From Luteibacter jiangsuensis (GTDB lineage Bacteria > Pseudomonadota > Gammaproteobacteria > Xanthomonadales > Rhodanobacteraceae): a stretch of DNA of 64,000 bases. Positions 7,512 to 32,261 of this stretch are shown one piece after another. The DNA lies in contig NZ_JAAQQR010000002.1 in the NCBI RefSeq assembly GCF_011742555.1, positions 62,001 through 126,000 on the forward strand, given 5' to 3'. The notes below the pieces were generated by a model. That model was not told the origin of the DNA. It saw only the letters and a program-made list of their open reading frames with translations, and made no database searches. The position numbers and the translations under genes were made by a program. Every line of letters begins with the position of its first letter. Within the stretch, counting starts at the first letter, position 1.

Positions 7512-9935
7512 ATGAAGCGTATCGCCGCCCTGATCCTGCTTGCCTCCCTGTCCGCCAATGCGCTTGCCGCCTTCGAGCCGTTCGTCGTCTCCGACATCCG
7601 CATCGATGGCCTGACGCGCATCGCGCAGGGCACGGTGCTGAGCTACCTGCCGATCGAAAAGGGCGAGACCCTCAGCGACGACAAGGCGCAGGCCGCCATT
7701 CGCGCCCTGTACCAGACCAAGTTCTTCAGCGACGTGGAACTCGACCGCCAGGGCGACATCCTGGTCATCAAGGTCGTCGAGCGCCCGGCCATCGCCAAGC
7801 TCACGCTGCGTGGCAACAAGGACATCAAGGAAGACGACCTCCGCAAGGGCCTGAAGGAGATCGGCCTGGCCGAAGGCGAAACCTTCGACCGCCTCTCCCT
7901 CGACCGCGTGCAGCAAGAGCTCATCCGCCAGTACTACAACCGCGGCAAGTACAACGTCTCGGTCGATCCCCACGTGACGCGCCTCGACCGCAACCGCGTG
8001 GCCATCGACATCGAAATCCGCGAAGGCAAGGCGGCGAAGATCAAGGAGATCAACGTCATCGGCAACAAGGCCTTCAGCGACAAGGACATTCGCGACGGCT
8101 TCGAGTCGAATACCACGAACTGGCTGTCCTGGTATTCCAAGGACGACCAGTACTCGCGCGAGAAGCTCTCCGGCGACCTGGAGAAGCTCAGCAACTACTA
8201 CATGAACCGCGGCTACGCCGACTTCGGCATCGACTCCACCCAGGTGGCGATCAGCCCGGACAAGCGTTCCATGTACGTCGACGCCAGCGTCAAGGAAGGC
8301 GAGGTCTATACCGTCTCCGACGTGAAGCTGCTCGGCGAACTCATCCTGCCGGAAGACACCCTGCGCAAGCTGGTCTTCATCCATAAGGGCGACACCTTCA
8401 ACCGCGGCGCCATCGAAGCCAGCACGGACGCCATCAAGGGCATCCTCGCGAACATCGGCTACGCGTTCGCCAAGGTCACCCCGATTCCGAAGCTCGACAA
8501 GGACAAGCGCACCGCCGATCTCACGCTCTTCATCGAGCCGGGCAAGCGCGTGTACGTGCGCCGCGTGGTCTTCCAGGGCAACACCCGCACGGAAGACGAA
8601 GTGCTCCGCCGCGAAATGCGCCAGCTCGAAGGCGCGTGGTACTCGCAGGGCGCGATCGACCGTTCGAAGACGCGTCTGCAGCGCCTGGGCTACTTCAAGA
8701 CGGTGGACATCGACAAGGCGCTGGTGCCCGGCACGGTCGACCAGGTGGACCTCACCGCCAAGGTGGAAGAACAGTCCGCCGGCTCGCTGATGTTCGGCGT
8801 AGGCTACTCGCAGTACTCCGGCATCATCCTGTCGGCCTCGGTGTCGCAGAACAACTTCCTGGGCACGGGCGACCGCTTCTCCATCGCCGCGGAAACCAGC
8901 ACGTACTACAAGCGCGTGAACGCGAGCTACACCAACCCGTACCTCACCGATTCGAACATCGCCATCGGTTACAACCTCGGGTACAGCAAGCTCGACTACG
9001 GCGACACCGACCTCGCGAACTACACGTACAGCACCAAGTCGTTCGAAACCACGGTGTCGATCCCGATCACCGACTTCGACAACGTGTCGACGAGCCTCGG
9101 CGTCAGCTCGAACCTCATCAACACCTCGTTCTATACGCCGCAGGAGCTGGTGGCCTATCAGAACGCGCTCGGCAACAAGACGATCCACTCGTGGACGTCC
9201 AGCCTGGGTTACTCGCACGACACGCGCAACAGCTACTGGGCGCCCACCCGCGGCGGCCAGCTCACGGCATCCGTGTCCGGCGCGTTGCCGGGCTCCACGG
9301 TGCAGTTCTACAAGCTGTTCGGCGAAGCCAACCATTACTGGCCCATCGGCAAGGGCTTCGTGCTCTATCTCGACGGCCAGATCGGCTACGGCAAGACCTA
9401 CGGCCAGACCTACGACAACGACGGCTACCTGATCAACGCGGACGGTACCCGCGGCGCGCAGATCTACAAGAAGGGCGACAAGATCGACTTCCCCTTCTGG
9501 GAGAACTACTACGCGGGCGGCGTGCGCGACGTGCGCGGCTTCCAGGACAACACCCTGGGTCCCCGCCTCTGTGACGGCATCTCGACCACCCGCGAGCCGG
9601 ACAGCAAGGGCCGCTGCAGCGGCGGTGCGTACACCTACGGGCAGCCGGTCGGCGGCGCGTTCAAGGTGCTCGGTACCGCGCAGGTGTTCCTGCCGCTGCC
9701 GTTCCTGAAGGACGTGAACACGGCGCGTGTGTCCTGGTTCGTCGACGTCGGCAACGTGTACAAGGACTACGCCGCCTTCGACGCCAGCGAACTGCGCGCC
9801 TCCACGGGCCTGTCGCTGCAGTGGCAGGCGCCGATCGGCCCGCTGATCATCAACTTCGCCGTGCCGTTCCGTAAGAAGGACGCCGACAGCCGCTTCGTCG
9901 AGCGCATCCAGTTCACCTTCGGCAACACGTTCTAA
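7512..9935 (+). CDS. bamA: Outer membrane protein assembly factor BamA
   Basis: Essential Omp85 protein that inserts beta-barrel proteins into the outer membrane. The 807-residue product starts with a signal peptide (MKRIAALILLASLSANALAA). Five POTRA domains follow, each with a VVRRVVF or ISEIRVIG-like strand (for example AKIKEINVIGNKAF and KRVYVRRVVFQGNTRT). A 16-stranded barrel includes the family RGF motif in DVRGFQDNTLGPR and ends with a C-terminal phenylalanine (FTFGNTF). The chosen ATG gives a clean signal peptide; the frame is open 69 nt further upstream, but that segment is Arg-rich and not signal-like. Unusually, skp does not follow: a palindromic repeat and lpxD come next. Confidence 0.97.
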   Translation: MKRIAALILLASLSANALAAFEPFVVSDIRIDGLTRIAQGTVLSYLPIEKGETLSDDKAQAAIRALYQTKFFSDVELDRQGDILVIKVVERPAIAKLTLRGNKDIKEDDLRKGLKEIGLAEGETFDRLSLDRVQQELIRQYYNRGKYNVSVDPHVTRLDRNRVAIDIEIREGKAAKIKEINVIGNKAFSDKDIRDGFESNTTNWLSWYSKDDQYSREKLSGDLEKLSNYYMNRGYADFGIDSTQVAISPDKRSMYVDASVKEGEVYTVSDVKLLGELILPEDTLRKLVFIHKGDTFNRGAIEASTDAIKGILANIGYAFAKVTPIPKLDKDKRTADLTLFIEPGKRVYVRRVVFQGNTRTEDEVLRREMRQLEGAWYSQGAIDRSKTRLQRLGYFKTVDIDKALVPGTVDQVDLTAKVEEQSAGSLMFGVGYSQYSGIILSASVSQNNFLGTGDRFSIAAETSTYYKRVNASYTNPYLTDSNIAIGYNLGYSKLDYGDTDLANYTYSTKSFETTVSIPITDFDNVSTSLGVSSNLINTSFYTPQELVAYQNALGNKTIHSWTSSLGYSHDTRNSYWAPTRGGQLTASVSGALPGSTVQFYKLFGEANHYWPIGKGFVLYLDGQIGYGKTYGQTYDNDGYLINADGTRGAQIYKKGDKIDFPFWENYYAGGVRDVRGFQDNTLGPRLCDGISTTREPDSKGRCSGGAYTYGQPVGGAFKVLGTAQVFLPLPFLKDVNTARVSWFVDVGNVYKDYAAFDASELRASTGLSLQWQAPIGPLIINFAVPFRKKDADSRFVERIQFTFGNTF

Positions 9936-25549: not shown

Positions 25550-26896
25550 TCAGTACACGTCGCGGCGATAACGCCCGGTCACGGCGAGATCGTTTACCGC
25601 GACGTCCCCCAGCGCCTCGCGAAGGGCGGCATCCACGCCGGGCGCCATACCCGCCAGGCTGCCGCAGACATACACGCCGGCTCCCTGTTCCACGAATCGG
25701 CGAACCTCGTCGCGGGCGGCGCGCAGCCGGTCCTGCACGTAGCGTGCGCCGCGGCTCTCGCGCGACCAGACGAGATCCAGCCGCTCGACGGTGCCTTCCG
25801 CGTGCCAGCGTTCCAGTTCGTCGACATGGAGGCGGTCGATGGCAGCGTGCCGCTCGCCGAACACCAGCCAGTTCCGATGATGGCCGCGCGCGATGCGTGC
25901 CTTCAGCAGGGCGCGCAGCCCCGCGATGCCCGTGCCGTTGCCCACCAGAAGCAGTGGCCGCGCATCCTCGGGCACATGGAATCCGGCGTTGCGGCGCACG
26001 CGCAGATCCACGACGTCCCCCAGCGCTGCGCGTTCGGTCAGCCAACCCGAACCGATGCCCATCTCGCCGTCCGTGCCACGCATCTGCCGTACGACGAGAT
26101 GCAGCGCGCCGTCGTCGGGCAGCGACGCGATCGAATATTCGCGGTGGGGCAGCGTCGCGGCATCGCCCCTGGCACGGCGCGGCCCCACCTCGGCGATGTC
26201 TCCGGCTTCCCAGGCAAGGTGCGTCGGATCGTCCGGCACCAGCGCCAGGTGATAGCAGGGACCACCGGCGCTGCCGGGATTCAGCAGGCGCCGTTCGACG
26301 AGCCGCCAGGCCTGGTAGGCCGGCCGCGCCCAGTCGCTCATGCCGGGAAGGCCGGCGAGATGCGCGACATGGTGCTGCCAATGGCGAAGACTGCCTTCGT
26401 CGCCGTTGTCCACGTCGACACGATCGAACAGGGGCGCGGCTCCGCTTGCGCGTAGCCACCCGTCCAGACGGCGGCCGAAAGCGCAGAAGTCGTCGTAGTC
26501 GCGGTCGCCCAGGGCCAGCACGCCGTAAGCGAGGCCGTGCAGTGCCGCGGGTGTCTTCATGAGGTTCCCGTCGAACGCCGTCGCGGCGTCGGGGGCATCA
26601 CCCTCCCCGGTCGTGCTGGCGACAAACAGCGCGCGCGGCGTGGCCTCCAGCACGTCGGGCGTGAGTTCGTCCATGCCGCGGACGTCCACGGTCAGGCCAC
26701 CCGCGCGCAACGCCTCCGCCGTCCGGTCGGCAAGCTCCGTGGCGAAGCCCGTTTGCGACGCGTGCACGACGAGGACGCCCCCGGTCGCGCCGGTGTCCTT
26801 GCGGATGCCGCGACGAGCGCACGCGACGGTGAAGGCCGTCCAGGCAAGAACGAGGCCGCCCGCGAGCGCGAAGCGCGTCAGTTCGCCAGCGATCAC
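25550..26896 (-). CDS. Flavodoxin / NADPH-cytochrome P450 reductase-type flavoprotein with N-terminal membrane anchor
   Basis: 448 residues. An N-terminal hydrophobic segment (residues ~7-26) suggests membrane attachment. Residues ~40-180 are a flavodoxin-like FMN domain (VVHASQTGFATELADRTAEAL, VASTTGEGDAP, LALGDRDYDDFCAFG). Residues ~205-448 form a ferredoxin-NADP reductase-like FAD/NADPH module (HREYSIASLP, LLLVGNGTGIAGLRALL, GAGVYVCGSLAGM). It resembles the flavoprotein of sulfite reductase, but no hemoprotein partner is nearby. As the last gene of the PepSY/DUF2271/DUF4198/ApbE operon (4-nt overlap with apbE), it probably feeds NADPH electrons to the PepSY membrane protein. Confidence 0.88.
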   Translation of the reverse strand: MIAGELTRFALAGGLVLAWTAFTVACARRGIRKDTGATGGVLVVHASQTGFATELADRTAEALRAGGLTVDVRGMDELTPDVLEATPRALFVASTTGEGDAPDAATAFDGNLMKTPAALHGLAYGVLALGDRDYDDFCAFGRRLDGWLRASGAAPLFDRVDVDNGDEGSLRHWQHHVAHLAGLPGMSDWARPAYQAWRLVERRLLNPGSAGGPCYHLALVPDDPTHLAWEAGDIAEVGPRRARGDAATLPHREYSIASLPDDGALHLVVRQMRGTDGEMGIGSGWLTERAALGDVVDLRVRRNAGFHVPEDARPLLLVGNGTGIAGLRALLKARIARGHHRNWLVFGERHAAIDRLHVDELERWHAEGTVERLDLVWSRESRGARYVQDRLRAARDEVRRFVEQGAGVYVCGSLAGMAPGVDAALREALGDVAVNDLAVTGRYRRDVY

Positions 26897-28041
26897 GGCT
26901 TGACCAGGGCGGCGAACGCCGGCGACATGCGCTCCACGACATGGCCGTCGCCATCGTGGAGGATGAACAGCGCCGCGATGCCGTGCCGTTTCGCGAAGGC
27001 CATGCCCTCGTCCGGGCCCAGCACTGTCAGCGTGGTGCCCAACGGATCGGCGTGCATGCAGTCGTTCGCGACCACGCTGACCGACGCCACCCGGTGCGCC
27101 ACCGGATAACCCGTGCGTGGGTCGATGTGGTGCGAGAAGAACCGTCCGCCACTTTCGAAGAAGTGGCGGTAGTCGCCCGATGTGGCGATGGCCTTGTCGT
27201 CGAGGGAAAGCACGCGCCCCACTTCGTCGGGATCGTCGACGGCACCGGCCGCCGCGCCGGGACGCTCGATGCCCACGCGCCAGGGCGAGCCGTCAGGCTT
27301 GCGGCCGTGGCCGCGGAGTTCGCCCCCCACTTCGACGAGATACGCATCGACACCGGAACGATCGAGGAAGCGTGCCACCTGATCGACGCCGAACCCCTTC
27401 GCGACCGCGGAGAGATCGACATAGACGCCGCCGGGCTGGAACGCCCGCCGATGTGCCTCGTCCAGACGGATCTTCGCCCAGCCCACGCGCTTCCTTGCCT
27501 CGGCGATGGCCGCCGCATCGGGCGGCGCATACGGATGGACCGGATCGTGCGACGACGGCTTGCCTGCCGAAGCCTTGCCGGGACCGAAGCCCCACAGGTT
27601 CACGAGCGGACCCACGGTCGGGTCGTAAGCGCCCCCGGATGCCTTCCCCAGTTGCAGCGCGTAACGCAGCACGGTGAACAATTCCGGGGGCAGCGCCTGC
27701 CACGTACCCGCTGGTGCGCGATTGAAGCGGCTGAGGTCGGACGTATCGTCGTAGGTGCTCATCTGCGTCACGACACGATCGACCTCGGCCTGGATGCCCT
27801 GCTCGATGGCGTGTTCATCCGCGCCGTCGGGAAGCACGGCGTTCACCGACCACGTCGTTCCCATCGTCTCGCCTTCGAAGCGATGTATGTCGCTGGCGAA
27901 GGCGGGAGCGCAGACCAGGGCGAGCAGGCAGACGACGCTATGGCAGATGCGTGCCAGCGACCCTGGCGCATTTCGCGAAGAGCCGTCGCGCGCAGGGCGC
28001 GCTCCTACGGCGTTCGGCGCACGGTGGGTCTCGGCACGCAT
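26893..28041 (-). CDS. apbE: FAD:protein FMN transferase ApbE
   Basis: Attaches FMN from FAD to Thr or Ser of target proteins in the periplasm. The 382-residue product shows FEGETMGTTWSVN, DDTSDLSRFNRAPAG, GGAYDPTVGPLVNLWGFG, VDLSAVAKGFGVDQVARFL, VEVGGELRGHG, ATSGDYRHFF, HHIDPRTGYPV and the metal-site DPLGTTLTVLG, all family hallmarks. The start is uncertain. The ATG at 28041 has a poor ribosome site, and the first ~35 residues before the signal peptide (VVCLLALVCAPAFA) look unnatural: they are partly encoded by a palindromic repeat (27986-28008). No ATG, GTG or TTG lies nearer the signal. It sits downstream of a DUF2271 protein carrying a flavinylation motif. Confidence 0.92.
   Translation of the reverse strand: MRAETHRAPNAVGARPARDGSSRNAPGSLARICHSVVCLLALVCAPAFASDIHRFEGETMGTTWSVNAVLPDGADEHAIEQGIQAEVDRVVTQMSTYDDTSDLSRFNRAPAGTWQALPPELFTVLRYALQLGKASGGAYDPTVGPLVNLWGFGPGKASAGKPSSHDPVHPYAPPDAAAIAEARKRVGWAKIRLDEAHRRAFQPGGVYVDLSAVAKGFGVDQVARFLDRSGVDAYLVEVGGELRGHGRKPDGSPWRVGIERPGAAAGAVDDPDEVGRVLSLDDKAIATSGDYRHFFESGGRFFSHHIDPRTGYPVAHRVASVSVVANDCMHADPLGTTLTVLGPDEGMAFAKRHGIAALFILHDGDGHVVERMSPAFAALVKP
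27986..28008. repeat. Short palindromic repeat (GTAGGAGCGCGC type) inside the apbE 5' region
   Basis: On the minus strand the sequence reads GTAGGAGCGCGCCCTGCGCG followed by CGA, a GCGCGC/GCGCGC hairpin of a type scattered through many gammaproteobacterial genomes. It is translated as part of the predicted apbE N terminus. Confidence 0.6.
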
Positions 28042-28049
28042 GGCGGGCT

Positions 28050-28859
28050 TTATTGCGGGAGCACTTCGAGCGTCGCCGTATAGGCGAGCCGGCGGTTCTT
28101 CGCTTCCTTCACCGAGGTGCGATCGTCCTCGGTCGAGGCGTTGACCCAATACATGCCGGCCGCGGGCCAGGTGAAGCTGAACTTTCCGTCGCTATCGGTG
28201 GTGGTGTCCATCTCGTCCTGCGCGTTGCGATAACGCGTGGCGCCGTTGATGGCCACGACCTTGAGGTTCGCCGCGGGCTTGCCGTCGAGCAGGAGGCGGA
28301 AGGTGGCTTTCTCGCCCGCCATGAGGTCGTTCGGCTGACTGACCGGTACCAGTTCCAGACCCTTGCCGACAGGCTTCAGCGCGCCGTCGCTCGGCGAGCC
28401 CTGGGTGACGAAGGTCTCCACCCGCGACGCCATCTCGCTCACCGCCACGTTCTTAGCGCCAGCGGGGATAGCCCCCTTGAATTCCGCAGGGGTGCCACGC
28501 CAGCGCTTCTTCTGGCCGTCCAGCTCGTAATTGGCGAACAGGCCCTGGTTCACGAGCGCGAGGCGATACGTACCCTTCTGCGGTACCGGCACGTCGAACG
28601 TGCTGCGGTACTTGCCGGTCGCGGCGTTTTCCGGTTTCACCGTCGAGCCGTCCGGCGCGGTGATGACCAGGGTGTCGAGCCTGGCCGGGAAGTGATCCGG
28701 ATAGTAGAGATCGTTGGAAACGGCGGCGTCGACGGTCACCCAGGCGTCGTCGCCGGAGATCACCGTGGCGCTGGGCACCATCCACATCTTGTGAGCCTGT
28801 GCCGCGAGCGGCAGGACGAGGGCGGCGCAGAAGGCGGCGCGGGCAAGCGTGTGCTTCAT
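28050..28859 (-). CDS. DUF4198 periplasmic protein
   Basis: 269 residues with a signal peptide (MKHTLARAAFCAALVLPLAAQA). The mature protein should begin with histidine (HKMWMVP), as in many DUF4198 members, which are linked to metal handling in the periplasm. It is mostly beta, including a C-terminal Ig-like or carboxypeptidase-regulatory-like domain (LLDGKPAANLKVVAINGATRY, TDSDGKFSFTWPAAGMYWVN). The ATG at 28859 was chosen for the signal peptide; the long open frame upstream is the DUF2271 gene read out of frame. It lies 14 nt after DUF2271 and 8 nt before apbE. Exact function unknown. Confidence 0.85.
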   Translation of the reverse strand: MKHTLARAAFCAALVLPLAAQAHKMWMVPSATVISGDDAWVTVDAAVSNDLYYPDHFPARLDTLVITAPDGSTVKPENAATGKYRSTFDVPVPQKGTYRLALVNQGLFANYELDGQKKRWRGTPAEFKGAIPAGAKNVAVSEMASRVETFVTQGSPSDGALKPVGKGLELVPVSQPNDLMAGEKATFRLLLDGKPAANLKVVAINGATRYRNAQDEMDTTTDSDGKFSFTWPAAGMYWVNASTEDDRTSVKEAKNRRLAYTATLEVLPQ

Positions 28860-28873
28860 CGGTACGGCTCCGT

Positions 28874-29386
28874 TCAAGGGTTGAGGTCGAGGTCGATCTG
28901 TCCGAGTTCTTCGCTGCCCTTGGCGGACAGGTGCACGGGCGCCTTGGCCGGCCAATCGAAGGGAATGCGCTGGGCTTCTCGCCCGCCGACTTCGCGTGCC
29001 GCCTCCACCACCAGTTCGTAGTGTCCCGGCGCGAGCGTGCCCAGCGGGGGCTTGCCGTCGACGAAGCGCAGGCGATGCTGGCCGGCCGGGCGCGTGGCGC
29101 CGGACACGCCGTCGATCGGCATGGTCTGCTCGCGACCGCTGCGGCGCCACCACTGGCGCATGTCCTTCAGCCACTTCGTGCCTTCGCCGTCGCCCTTCTT
29201 CATTTCGTACCAGACCGCGAGGTTGGCCGCGACGCTGTGGTCTTCGCGCTCGATCCACACCGCGACATACGGCCGGTGGTACTCGGCCACCTTCAGCGTT
29301 GGGATTTCCACGGTGATGTTCATGTCGGCCGCGATCGCGGGCGCGGCGCAACAGGCGCAGATGGCGAGTGTCAGGAGGCGACGCAT
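28874..29386 (-). CDS. DUF2271 periplasmic protein, predicted ApbE flavinylation target
   Basis: 170 residues with a signal peptide (MRRLLTLAICACCAAPAIAA). The DUF2271 features are visible: ITVEIPTLKVAEYHRPYVAVWIE, TKWLKDMRQWWRRS, and a C-terminal beta segment with GHYELVVEAAREVGG. Residues 92-98 read DGVSGAT, which matches the Asp-x-x-Ser-Gly-Ala-Thr motif on which ApbE esterifies FMN in NqrC and RnfG; Thr98 would be the acceptor. With apbE in the same operon, this is probably a covalently flavinylated periplasmic electron carrier. The motif is seen; the modification is inferred. Confidence 0.87.
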   Translation of the reverse strand: MRRLLTLAICACCAAPAIAADMNITVEIPTLKVAEYHRPYVAVWIEREDHSVAANLAVWYEMKKGDGEGTKWLKDMRQWWRRSGREQTMPIDGVSGATRPAGQHRLRFVDGKPPLGTLAPGHYELVVEAAREVGGREAQRIPFDWPAKAPVHLSAKGSEELGQIDLDLNP

Positions 29387-29396
29387 GGCGATTCCT

Positions 29397-30020
29397 TCAA
29401 TGGATGAACACGAGGGCGATGACGACGGGCAGCACGAAGCCCAGGGCGACCATGGGCCAGGTCATGCCGCGCTGCGCGGCGTGCATCTTGAGCAGCACGA
29501 GACCCGTCACGGCGAACACGAGGCAGGCCAGCGCGAACACGTCGATGAACGCGCTCCAGACAGCCCCGGTGTTGCGTCCCTTGTGCAGGTCGTTGAGCCA
29601 GGCCAGCCAGCCCCGGTCGGTGACTTCGTACTGCACGTCGCCGTTCTCCCGGTCGATAGCGACCCACGCATCGCCGCCCGGCCTGGGCAGCGAGACGTAC
29701 ACCTCGTCGTCGCTCCAGTCGCCCGCGCGTGCTTCGATACGTGCGCCGGTTTCGCTCCGCACGAACTCGGCGACCGCTGGCGGAACCGGCGCGGACTTCG
29801 CGCCCGGATCGGTCAATTGGCGCAGCAGCGGCGCGGGCAAGGTCGCGGCGAAGCGCGACACCGCAGGCGAGGCCTCGATGCGCGCGGCGTGGTTGAGCGT
29901 GAAGCCCGTGACGGAGAACAGCAGGAGCGCGACGAGCGAAACCGCCGAACTGATCCAGTGCCAGCGGTGCAGGTGCTTGAGCCAGAAGGCACGGCGTTGC
30001 CGATCGACGGTGTCGCGCAT
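29397..30020 (-). CDS. PepSY-associated transmembrane protein
   Basis: 207 residues. An N-terminal helix (LHRWHWISSAVSLVALLLFSVTG) is followed by a periplasmic PepSY-like domain (~residues 40-135) and two C-terminal helices (VFALACLVFAVTGLVLL; MVALGFVLPVVIALVFIH). Conserved histidines (HLHRWHW, NDLHKG) could bind haem, as in PepSY_TM proteins of ferric-reductase-like systems. The ATG at 30020 was chosen because upstream in-frame ATGs at 30065, 30074 and 30092 lie in or beside the Fur-box-like site, where the promoter must be. It is the first gene of the five-gene electron-transfer operon. Confidence 0.85.
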   Translation of the reverse strand: MRDTVDRQRRAFWLKHLHRWHWISSAVSLVALLLFSVTGFTLNHAARIEASPAVSRFAATLPAPLLRQLTDPGAKSAPVPPAVAEFVRSETGARIEARAGDWSDDEVYVSLPRPGGDAWVAIDRENGDVQYEVTDRGWLAWLNDLHKGRNTGAVWSAFIDVFALACLVFAVTGLVLLKMHAAQRGMTWPMVALGFVLPVVIALVFIH

Positions 30021-30074
30021 GTTTTCCGTAAAGCCCCTGGGATGGTGGTGATCGCAGCGGGCCATGTTAACCAT

Positions 30075-30094
30075 AATGCGAATCGTTCGCAATT
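30075..30094 (-). promoter_or_regulatory. Fur-box-like palindrome upstream of the PepSY operon
   Basis: AATGCGAATCGTTCGCAATT is a near-perfect dyad and keeps the GCGAAT-CGTTCGC pattern close to gammaproteobacterial Fur boxes (AATGAGAATCATTCTCATT type). It lies 55 nt before the PepSY start and 76 nt before the divergent response regulator, so it could affect both. Iron repression is inferred. Confidence 0.65.
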
Positions 30095-30169
30095 ACGCCC
30101 GGAAAGCGGCTTGAAAGCCTGTCGCGACAGGATGCGCGAACACCTATCCGGAGCGTATCCTTGGCCCTC

Positions 30170-30844
30170 ATGCGCATCCTTTTGGCCGAAGACGACGCCG
30201 CTATCGGCGCGGCAGTACGAGCCTCGCTCGAACAAGGCGGACACGCCGTCGACCATGTCACCGACGGCGCCAGCGCCGACAACGCCCTGCGCGACCACGA
30301 CTACGACCTGCTCGTGCTCGACCTGGGCCTGCCTCTGCTCGACGGCAGCGAGGTGCTGTCGCGGGCGCGCAAGCGCGGCTCCGGCTTGCCGGTGCTCGTG
30401 GTGACCGCGCGCGAAGGGTTGAAGGAACGCGTGCGTGTGCTCGATCTCGGCGCCGACGACTACCTCGTGAAGCCGTTCGCCCTCGCCGAATTCGACGCCC
30501 GTGTACGCGCCCTGCTCCGCCGGCGAACGAGCCAGGGCACCCCGGAATTCCGTATCGGACGCCTCCGCCTGGATATCCCGGGACACCGCGCCTGGATCGG
30601 CGACACCGCGCTGGACCTCACCGCCCGCGAGTTCGGCCTGGTGGAAGCGCTTGCCCTCCGGGCCGACAAGGTCACCAGCCGCACCCAGCTCGTCGAGGCA
30701 CTGTGCAACTGGGACGAAGACCTGACCGACAACGGCCTGGACATCGCCCTGCACCGCCTGCGCAAGAAGCTGCAGGGTTCGGGAACCAGCGTCCGCACCA
30801 TCCGCGGCCTGGGTTATCTCCTCGAAGAAAGCGCGGATGCCTGA
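30170..30844 (+). CDS. OmpR-family response regulator (QseB/TctD-like)
   Basis: 224 residues. The receiver domain (1-115) has acidic Asp8/Asp9, phospho-acceptor Asp51 (LVLDLGLPLLDG), Thr79 and Lys101 (DYLVKPF). The OmpR/PhoB winged-helix domain (~125-220) shows LDLTAREFGLVEALAL, RTQLVEAL, NGLDIALHRLRKKL and the terminal TIRGLGYLLE. A TTG at 30161 in the same frame has better Shine-Dalgarno spacing (GGAG at 30150) and would add three residues; the ATG fits family alignments. The next gene overlaps by 8 nt. The pair is divergent to the Fur-box operon, which it may also control. Confidence 0.94.
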   Translation: MRILLAEDDAAIGAAVRASLEQGGHAVDHVTDGASADNALRDHDYDLLVLDLGLPLLDGSEVLSRARKRGSGLPVLVVTAREGLKERVRVLDLGADDYLVKPFALAEFDARVRALLRRRTSQGTPEFRIGRLRLDIPGHRAWIGDTALDLTAREFGLVEALALRADKVTSRTQLVEALCNWDEDLTDNGLDIALHRLRKKLQGSGTSVRTIRGLGYLLEESADA

Positions 30845-32261
30845 TCGCCGCCACTCGGCGGCACGGCGACCGCCACGCCCCAGCCTGCGGCGGCGGCTGC
30901 TCACCTTTCTGCTCGTGCCGGTGCTCGGCGTGCTTCTCCTGGATGCGGTGATCGGCTATTTCGTCGCCTTGGCGTATTCCAACCGGGTGCACGACGCCAC
31001 GCTTTCGGACAACGCGCTTACGCTCTCGGAAATGATCGGCAGCGATGCGCTGCGCGGCGAACTGACCGAACAGGCGCGGTTCCTTCTCGAATACGATCCC
31101 AACGGCCGCAATTACTACACCGTGACCAGCGACCGGCACGGGCGGGTCATCAGCAACGCGATCCTGCAGGCACCCTCCGTCGCCGTGGACGCGCCACCGC
31201 GGCTCTTCGACACCGAACTGGGCCATCGCCCGCTGCGGGCGGCGACCATGCGCGTGCCCAGCCGTCACGATCCGGACGACGTGCTCACGATCACCGTGGC
31301 GGAGAACCTGCGCGACCGGCACGCCCGCGCACGCGAGATCCTCCTGCTCACGCTGCCGATGCAGGCCCTGCTCATCGTGGCCGTCCTCTTCCTTGTGTGG
31401 CTTGGCGTGAGCCACGGCCTGCGCGTGCTGGAACCGTTGACCTCGCGCCTGGCCCGGCGCGAACACGACCTCAGCCCCATCGGCGAGGAAGACGTGCCGG
31501 TGGAGATCCTTCCGCTCACCCGCACCATCGACGACCTGTTCGCCCGCATGCGCAACATGCTGGGCTTGCAGGAGCGCTTCATCGCCGACGCCGCGCATCA
31601 GTTGCGCACGCCGCTCGCCGGCATCCGGTTGCACGTGGAGAGGCTGACCGAGACCACCGACCCGGCCCAGCGCGCCGACGCGATGAACCACGTGCAACGC
31701 CTTGCCGCGCGCGCCGCACGCACGTCGGCGCAGCTGCTCGCGCTGACGCGCACGCAGTCGCCGGACCTGCCGGATCGCGACGGCATGGCCGAGATCGATC
31801 TGGCAACCGTGGTTCCGGAAGCCGTGGCGATGCGCGTGCACCAGGCCCTCGCCGCGGGTGTCGATCTCGGCTACGAAGGCACGGACGATCCCTGCATCAT
31901 TCGAGGCGATGCATTGCAGGTGCAGGAAGTGATCGACAATCTCGTGGACAACGCCTTCCACTACGCGGGCCGCGGCCACGTGGTGACGGTGTCGGTGGCC
32001 CGCGGCGAGAACGAGGTACTGCTGGCCGTGGAGGACGACGGTCCCGGCGTCGACGATGCGTTCCTCGGACAACTCGGCGAGCGCTTCTTTCGCGTACCCG
32101 GCGTCGACGAAGACGGCACCGGCCTGGGCCTCGCCATCGTCGAGAGCATCGCCGAGCGCCACGACGCGCGCGTGAATTTCCTGCACGCCAAGGCCGGTGG
32201 CCTGCGCGTGGAACTTCACTTCCCCGCAGCCGCTCCGCTCAAGGACCACTCGCTGCACTGA
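30837..32261 (+). CDS. Two-component sensor histidine kinase (TctE/QseC-like)
   Basis: 474 residues. Membrane helix 1 is at ~22-46, an extracytoplasmic 2CSK_N-type sensor at ~47-165 (LTLSEMIGSDALRGEL, EYDPNGRNYYTV), and helix 2 at ~168-190. The HisKA H-box is FIADAAHQLRTPLAG with His254. The HATPase region has an N-box (EVIDNLVDNAFHYA), VEDDGPGV and GTGLGLAIVE. It phosphorylates the overlapping upstream regulator. TctE-type kinases often sense carboxylates, QseC-type often metals or catechols; the ligand here cannot be told. Confidence 0.94.
   Translation: MPDRRHSAARRPPRPSLRRRLLTFLLVPVLGVLLLDAVIGYFVALAYSNRVHDATLSDNALTLSEMIGSDALRGELTEQARFLLEYDPNGRNYYTVTSDRHGRVISNAILQAPSVAVDAPPRLFDTELGHRPLRAATMRVPSRHDPDDVLTITVAENLRDRHARAREILLLTLPMQALLIVAVLFLVWLGVSHGLRVLEPLTSRLARREHDLSPIGEEDVPVEILPLTRTIDDLFARMRNMLGLQERFIADAAHQLRTPLAGIRLHVERLTETTDPAQRADAMNHVQRLAARAARTSAQLLALTRTQSPDLPDRDGMAEIDLATVVPEAVAMRVHQALAAGVDLGYEGTDDPCIIRGDALQVQEVIDNLVDNAFHYAGRGHVVTVSVARGENEVLLAVEDDGPGVDDAFLGQLGERFFRVPGVDEDGTGLGLAIVESIAERHDARVNFLHAKAGGLRVELHFPAAAPLKDHSLH

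Follow-up and report, generated by a model that had tools for sequence, protein, structure and literature searches.

The operon described here lies on the minus strand at 25550-30020 of a 64-kb stretch of DNA (the window; positions count from its first letter, except those that follow a locus number such as L060, which belong to that locus) in the 4.33 Mb genome of a soil bacterium related to Luteibacter. Judged by the DUF2271 protein, the closest named relatives are Luteibacter, with a best identity of 97% among the best 80 of 513 relatives. The five genes are ordered 5' to 3' as PepSY, DUF2271, DUF4198, ApbE and a flavodoxin/FNR reductase, with intergenic gaps of 10, 14 and 8 nucleotides (nt) along the operon and, by their coordinates, a 4-nt overlap of the ApbE and reductase genes. 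Open reading frames and Pfam searches bear out these genes and their order, as a first-pass annotation had read them from the letters of the DNA, and the Fur-box-like dyad that it had seen upstream is found at 30075-30093. The start of the PepSY gene at 30020 was set by the Luteibacter homologues, and its longest open reading frame (to 30092) served as search query. The features are as follows.

25550-26896, minus strand: N-terminally anchored flavodoxin/FNR reductase (Flavodoxin_1 E 1e-22, NAD_binding_1 E 7e-8)
26893-28041, minus strand: ApbE, flavin adenine dinucleotide (FAD):protein flavin mononucleotide (FMN) transferase (Pfam PF02424 E 2e-88)
28050-28859, minus strand: DUF4198, secreted (Pfam PF10670 E 2e-59)
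28874-29386, minus strand: DUF2271, periplasmic, probable ApbE substrate (Pfam PF10029 E 7e-52)
29397-30020, minus strand: PepSY_TM_like_2 membrane protein of 207 amino acids (Pfam PF16357 E 6e-79, 265 bits; PF03929 46 bits)
30075-30093, no strand: Fur-box-like dyad AATGCGAATCGTTCGCAAT, 54 nt upstream of the PepSY start (pattern search)

The translated sequence confirms that residues 92-98 of DUF2271 read DGVSGAT, a motif of the [S/T]GA[S/T] type found in ApbE substrates, and Thr98 is predicted from it to be the FMN acceptor. Profile searches of the host genome gave exactly one ApbE and one DUF2271, and no matches to FMN_bind, NQR2/RnfD or DUF3570, so that DUF2271 is the only recognised substrate of the sole ApbE. 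A homologue from Amantichitinum ursilacus is described as being flavinylated by its cognate ApbE, and the exchange of Thr for Ala as abolishing the flavinylation (PMC8238504). The idea that ApbE flavinylates DUF2271 is thus supported both by experiment on a homologue and by the single enzyme and single recognised substrate found here. In a sample of 121 genomes from the order, 43 were without FMN_bind or NQR2/RnfD; ApbE and DUF2271 occur together in 21 of these, ApbE alone in 6, DUF2271 alone in none and neither in 16 (Fisher p 3.6e-7 for the co-occurrence, not corrected for relatedness).

A test of motif against adjacency covered 78 of the 81 fetched loci, three (L080-L082) being left out as they had matches below the Pfam cut-off only; the first pass comprised 71 loci, to which 7 loci with a second class of DUF2271, all TGAS, were added. 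Where a separate apbE lies nearby on the same strand, all 48 DUF2271 copies keep both S/T positions (27 are [ST]GA[ST], 17 [ST]GP[ST] and 4 other), and to that extent the expected tracking of the motif with a neighbouring apbE holds. Strict tracking was rejected, because [ST]GA[ST] is also found in 17 of the 26 copies that have no detected apbE beside them; 8 more have the S/T positions only and 1 is off-motif. In two of these cases (L057, L059) the operon sits at the edge of its contig, and the 26 copies sit in 24 genomes, 23 of which have an apbE somewhere, the exception being genome G118.

Two other forms of DUF2271 were seen among the fetched loci. Three of four ApbE-DUF2271 fusions have no intact motif and read HGIARET (L060 8705-10222), QGIARPT (L062 6917-8950) and EGYARAT (L065 7368-8867), with the Thr retained, while the fourth (L069) retains SGPT. 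The second class of DUF2271, with TGAS or SGAS, occurs at 12 loci (L061, L063, L064, L070-L077, L079), at none of which DUF4198 was detected; at one of them a 747-residue PepSY-flavodoxin-FNR fusion (L061 6382-8622) adjoins the second-class DUF2271 (8686-9171).

We kept 80 loci from the relatives as a second set, which leans to close relatives since these are the best 80 of 513; it overlaps in part with the first set, and several contigs end within the operon. All five genes stand in the same order at 69 of the 80 loci. Five of the remaining 11 are without the reductase in the fetched stretch, 3 without ApbE, 2 without both and 1 without PepSY at a contig end, and some of the gene gaps among the 80 loci are contig ends. 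The DUF2271 motif in this set is SGAT at 62 loci, TGAT at 6, TQPT at 4, TSPT at 3, TGPT at 2 and SSAT at 1, with 2 that the pattern did not match.

The Fur-box consensus is AATGMGAATCRTTCKCATT, and dyads were searched for with up to 3 mismatches to it. The dyad upstream of PepSY is the only such place in the 64-kb window (shuffle mean 0.02) and is the top-ranking one of 11 genome-wide (16 rows on both strands; a control with the reversed pattern gave 0). A site with a score of at least 14/19 lies within 220 nt upstream of PepSY at 45 of 56 loci of the first set and 65 of 79 of the second, as compared with 2.3% of 3,400 control windows drawn at random from those loci; the shuffles and the recurrence in relatives both reject a chance origin of the dyad. 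Elsewhere in the genome three dyads precede TonB receptors (L148, L149, L150), one is directly upstream of feoA and feoB (L152 2780-3053, contig C11) and one, at L153, has a ferritin-like gene 327 nt away. FeoB and Nramp were matched in 5/5 genomes of the genus searched, and import of Fe(II) is therefore available; FeoAB has been proposed to act downstream of a PepSY reductase (PMC12424826).

Caulobacter crescentus has a matching set of five consecutive genes, CC_3059-3063, in the same sequence (annotated as transporter, DUF2271, DUF4198, ApbE and a sulfite-reductase-like flavoprotein), and they are listed among genes that respond to iron and are regulated by Fur (PMC3751524). This locus is also known as CCNA_03155-03159, and transposon insertions in it are reported to lower fitness in the presence of ethylenediaminetetraacetic acid (EDTA); Fur is said to target it directly (PMC11870441, PMC12004947), and a PepSY protein is named for it (PMC11870441). 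The widespread dyad and these published Caulobacter data (PMC3751524, PMC11870441, PMC12004947) support the Fur link drawn in the first-pass annotation, and the operon is probably controlled by Fur and iron. The window operon belongs to another organism, and it has a divergent two-component system at its promoter region, a feature not compared in Caulobacter:

30161-32261, plus strand: two-component system, a response regulator followed by a 2CSK_N histidine kinase (Pfam)

The dyad-bearing intergenic region is common to the operon and this pair of genes, and no sigma-70-type promoter was found in 29900-30300. Strong homologues of the pair hold the same divergent place at 17 of the 80 loci, namely 5 of Luteibacter, 8 of Dyella and 4 of metagenome-assembled genomes of Dokdonella/Lysobacterales, and the system may add a second regulatory input to the operon.

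The membrane part of the chain would consist of the PepSY protein and the reductase. The PepSY protein is smaller than FoxB, and its AlphaFold2 (AF2) model (predicted local distance difference test, pLDDT, 90.8) has long helices at 2-43, 152-181 and 187-206. Among 135 homologues (L201 left out of the counts), His21 and His146 are kept in all 135, His44 in 122, His180 in 121 and His207 in 124, with 10 gaps at the last position. This conservation makes PepSY a probable two-haem electron conduit using His21, His44, His146, His180 and His207. The last of these is the C-terminal residue and, given three membrane helices, would face the periplasm; it could be a haem or a metal ligand. PepSY-like proteins such as FoxB are described as holding two haems by conserved histidines (PMC11334425, PMC12424826), and the siderophore reductases FoxB and HiuB resemble the window protein in being PepSY membrane proteins with conserved histidines, which in FoxB and HiuB are proposed or shown to be haem ligands. 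HiuB is also linked to Fur (PMC12424826, PMC11334425), but hiuABC, as described there, contains neither DUF2271 nor ApbE.

The reductase aligns over both of its domains with the sulfite reductase flavoprotein 6efv (E 8e-43), including wsr..yvqd and the C-terminal RDVY, and is about 100 residues shorter than 6efv between the two domains. It scores 215 bits against a cut-off of 668 for the cysJ equivalog, and it is therefore CysJ-like and not CysJ. Since it is homologous to a sulfite reductase flavoprotein, its probable electron donor is nicotinamide adenine dinucleotide phosphate (NADPH). Its N-terminus reads as one hydrophobic stretch followed by basic residues, which suggests an anchor in the inner membrane.

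We hold it highly probable that the operon is a Fur-repressed, flavin-based periplasmic iron-reduction module. The anchored CysJ-like diflavin reductase would take electrons from NADPH, and PepSY would carry them across the inner membrane, probably by way of two bis-His haems, to DUF2271 in the periplasm, which would have been flavinylated at Thr98 by the ApbE of the operon. The FMN of DUF2271 would then reduce ferric or siderophore iron, and the Fe(II) would enter through FeoAB, whose gene pair has a similar Fur-like dyad, while the secreted DUF4198, with a predicted mature N-terminus at His1, would most likely hold or present iron. We infer iron as the acceptor, as well as the covalent FMN on the window DUF2271, the path of the electrons, the use of NADPH, the haems and the role of DUF4198.

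Several observations weigh against this reading. For this host the iron-reduction account draws on sequence and predicted structure. PepSY has no PDB match by Foldseek at E 0.001 or better, so that a match to FoxB in the PDB was sought in vain, and on this account the haems are ones that we infer. The dyad score is below 14 at 11 of the 56 and 14 of the 79 loci. No iron gene was recognised at five of the 11 genomic places with a Fur-like dyad (L147, L151, L154, L155 and L156; neighbours of L147, L154 and L156 were searched in Pfam), and an enoyl-CoA-hydratase-like gene on the opposite strand starts 88 nt from the feoA dyad. Six of the 27 genomes with ApbE in the 43-genome subset have no recognised substrate, one genome among the remaining 78 of the order sample (G118, a fragmented assembly) has DUF2271 without an ApbE match, and the DUF2271 motif is retained at loci without an adjacent apbE. 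Finally, 9GCB, the nickel-bound structure of this family that is discussed below, was reached by the fold search only, and not by searching with the sequence or the profile of the window DUF4198.

The DUF4198 protein of the window reads AQA followed by His, i.e. an AxA cleavage site and then His, which suggests that the mature protein begins with His1. A His after AxA is also found at the N-terminus of 62 of 65 DUF2271-adjacent DUF4198 proteins in an unforced alignment; the other three are cut N-terminally in the alignment and on inspection read AHRAW. In the second set the N-terminal His is present in 80/80, 77 by pattern and 3 that were read as AHRAW on inspection, and all 145 DUF4198 proteins beside a DUF2271 have the sequence for a mature N-terminal His. 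The numbering of the 145 sequences starts at the AH match, so that His1 is there by construction and the alignment and inspection are the independent checks; some of them lie near ApbE-DUF2271 fusions or in other arrangements (L060, L062, L067, L069, L078). The N-terminal AH is not peculiar to the DUF2271-linked branch, because it is also present in DUF4198 copies away from the operon (L241, L247, L249, L250, L258); a sample of the class had DUF4198 matches in 19 of 143 genomes, most of these copies having only been glanced at. An N-terminal His is reported for 79% across the family (PMC12537917).

The AF2 model of the window DUF4198 (pLDDT 91.5) is a beta fold with strands at 2-7 and 18-26. 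The closest solved fold in Foldseek is Zcp (9mhm, E 2e-15, template modelling (TM) score about 0.7), solved with Zn, Cu and Co (PDB 9mhi-9mho), and 9GCB follows at E 1e-8 (TM 0.56/0.63). The latter (HDAWVEPGAAGPRLLLGH) is the nickel-binding DUF4198 of Ideonella sakaiensis, NikK, which binds nickel through its N-terminal His and His18 (PMC12537917). The window protein shares with it the PF10670 family, the mature N-terminal His and the HxxW with which both 9GCB and the DUF2271-linked branch start (W in 133 of 145). Unlike NikK, the window protein has no evident counterpart of His18: none of the 145 proteins has a His at mature positions 18-26, the register being set by eye and hairpin geometry. 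Ala24 may lie opposite His1 where 9GCB has His18, a placement made by hairpin geometry only, because the profile alignment stops short of that region; a residue-level alignment with the nickel-type protein was not obtained, as the profile comparison aligned the C-terminal half only. Conserved residues of the mature protein include Asp22 (141/145) and His34 (124/145). The wild-type and triple-mutant chains of Zcp differ, within the aligned stretch, by a His (probably His142) that aligns with Gln131 of the window protein. Mature position 153 (residue 175) is His in 119 of 145 and Gln in the window protein, and a universal ligand at this position was therefore rejected. Gln or Ser also stands there in some congeneric copies (L089, L095, L102), and copies from a neighbouring genus have Ser, Pro or Ala (L097, L099, L100).

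From its sequence and its likeness to these carriers, the window DUF4198 is most likely a secreted metal-binding protein that holds or presents iron, and we propose that within a family of metal carriers it represents a branch that handles iron. That it carries nickel, cobalt or zinc as NikK and Zcp do, with the operon as a general metal-uptake unit, we regard as unlikely. It shares the Pfam family of the nickel-type relative, the fold of nickel-bound 9GCB and of Zcp with Zn, Cu or Co, and the conserved mature N-terminal His, but the second nickel ligand is without an evident counterpart and the dyad upstream is Fur-like (NikR and Zur sites were not searched for). The reported neighbours of NikK are NikR and TonB (PMC12537917), whereas the window DUF4198 has the Fur-like dyad and the flavin/PepSY chain. 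As a tentative extension, which we think possible but would not expect to hold in full, DUF4198 proteins could be periplasmic carriers that bind metal by a free N-terminal His, the metal following the regulator (nickel with NikR, zinc with Zur and iron with Fur), and the Fur branch could have dropped the second, bracing His and present ferric iron to a flavinylated DUF2271 reductase. Such a sorting by regulator fits the Fur-like dyads; it leans on a presumed identity of the Zcp of the PDB with the product of the Neisseria gonorrhoeae gene zcp, whose transcript is reported to be zinc- and Zur-regulated.

PepSY could also be the reductase by itself, with the flavinylated DUF2271 and DUF4198 as accessories, but we find this improbable as well. 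VciB is described as a PepSY-like iron reductase without associated flavinylation components (PMC8238504), and FoxB as a siderophore reductase with HiuB as its likely counterpart (PMC12424826), yet PepSY, DUF2271 and ApbE occur together at 74 of the 80 kept loci. Very unlikely, in our opinion, is the same electron-export chain with an acceptor other than iron (another metal, say, or a quinone or sulfoxide), in which case control by Fur would reflect a general low-iron redox need: flavinylated systems are described with respiratory and other roles (PMC8238504), the acceptor here is read from sequence and DUF4198 relatives bind Ni, Zn, Cu or Co, but the dyad pattern is common to feoAB and the TonB receptors, and the Caulobacter counterpart is iron-regulated and matters for fitness under EDTA (PMC3751524, PMC11870441, PMC12004947).

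The reading as an iron-reduction module is sound, but largely published already. The 2021 survey by Meheust et al. of 3,220 PepSY-like flavinylation clusters found DUF2271 in 2,833 and DUF4198 in 1,500 and proposed iron reduction with Fur control (PMC8238504). The remark in the first-pass annotation that ApbE clusters with PepSY and DUF2271 had been noted in surveys agrees with this, while its statement that the full route could not be named as characterised has to be amended, since the route is in print as a proposal. The annotation gave DUF4198 no explanation. The window operon is like these clusters in its PF16357/PF03929 protein, its DUF2271 with [S/T]GA[S/T], its ApbE and its DUF4198, and unlike them, as they are described, in having a separate anchored CysJ-like reductase. 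The survey names DUF4198 once, as a secreted protein, in a passage that states no role for it, and the protein is absent from the main text of a second flavinylation paper. In the 2025 paper on NikK (PMC12537917), the words iron, PepSY, flavin and ApbE did not turn up when the main text was searched for them, and Fe is named in a passage on other proteins. What the present analysis adds is the single ApbE with its single recognised substrate, the recurrence of the dyad, the dyads at TonB receptors and feoAB, and the His1 of DUF4198 without a His18.

Reductive iron uptake by way of a covalent flavin is a widespread and little tested route, and the host genome is a clean test case for it, with a single ApbE, a single recognised substrate and feoAB preceded by a Fur-like dyad. 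Joining the literature on N-terminal-His DUF4198 proteins with that on flavinylation gives DUF4198 a testable role. It looks like an overlooked metal carrier, and it is the part of the locus most worth testing at the bench.

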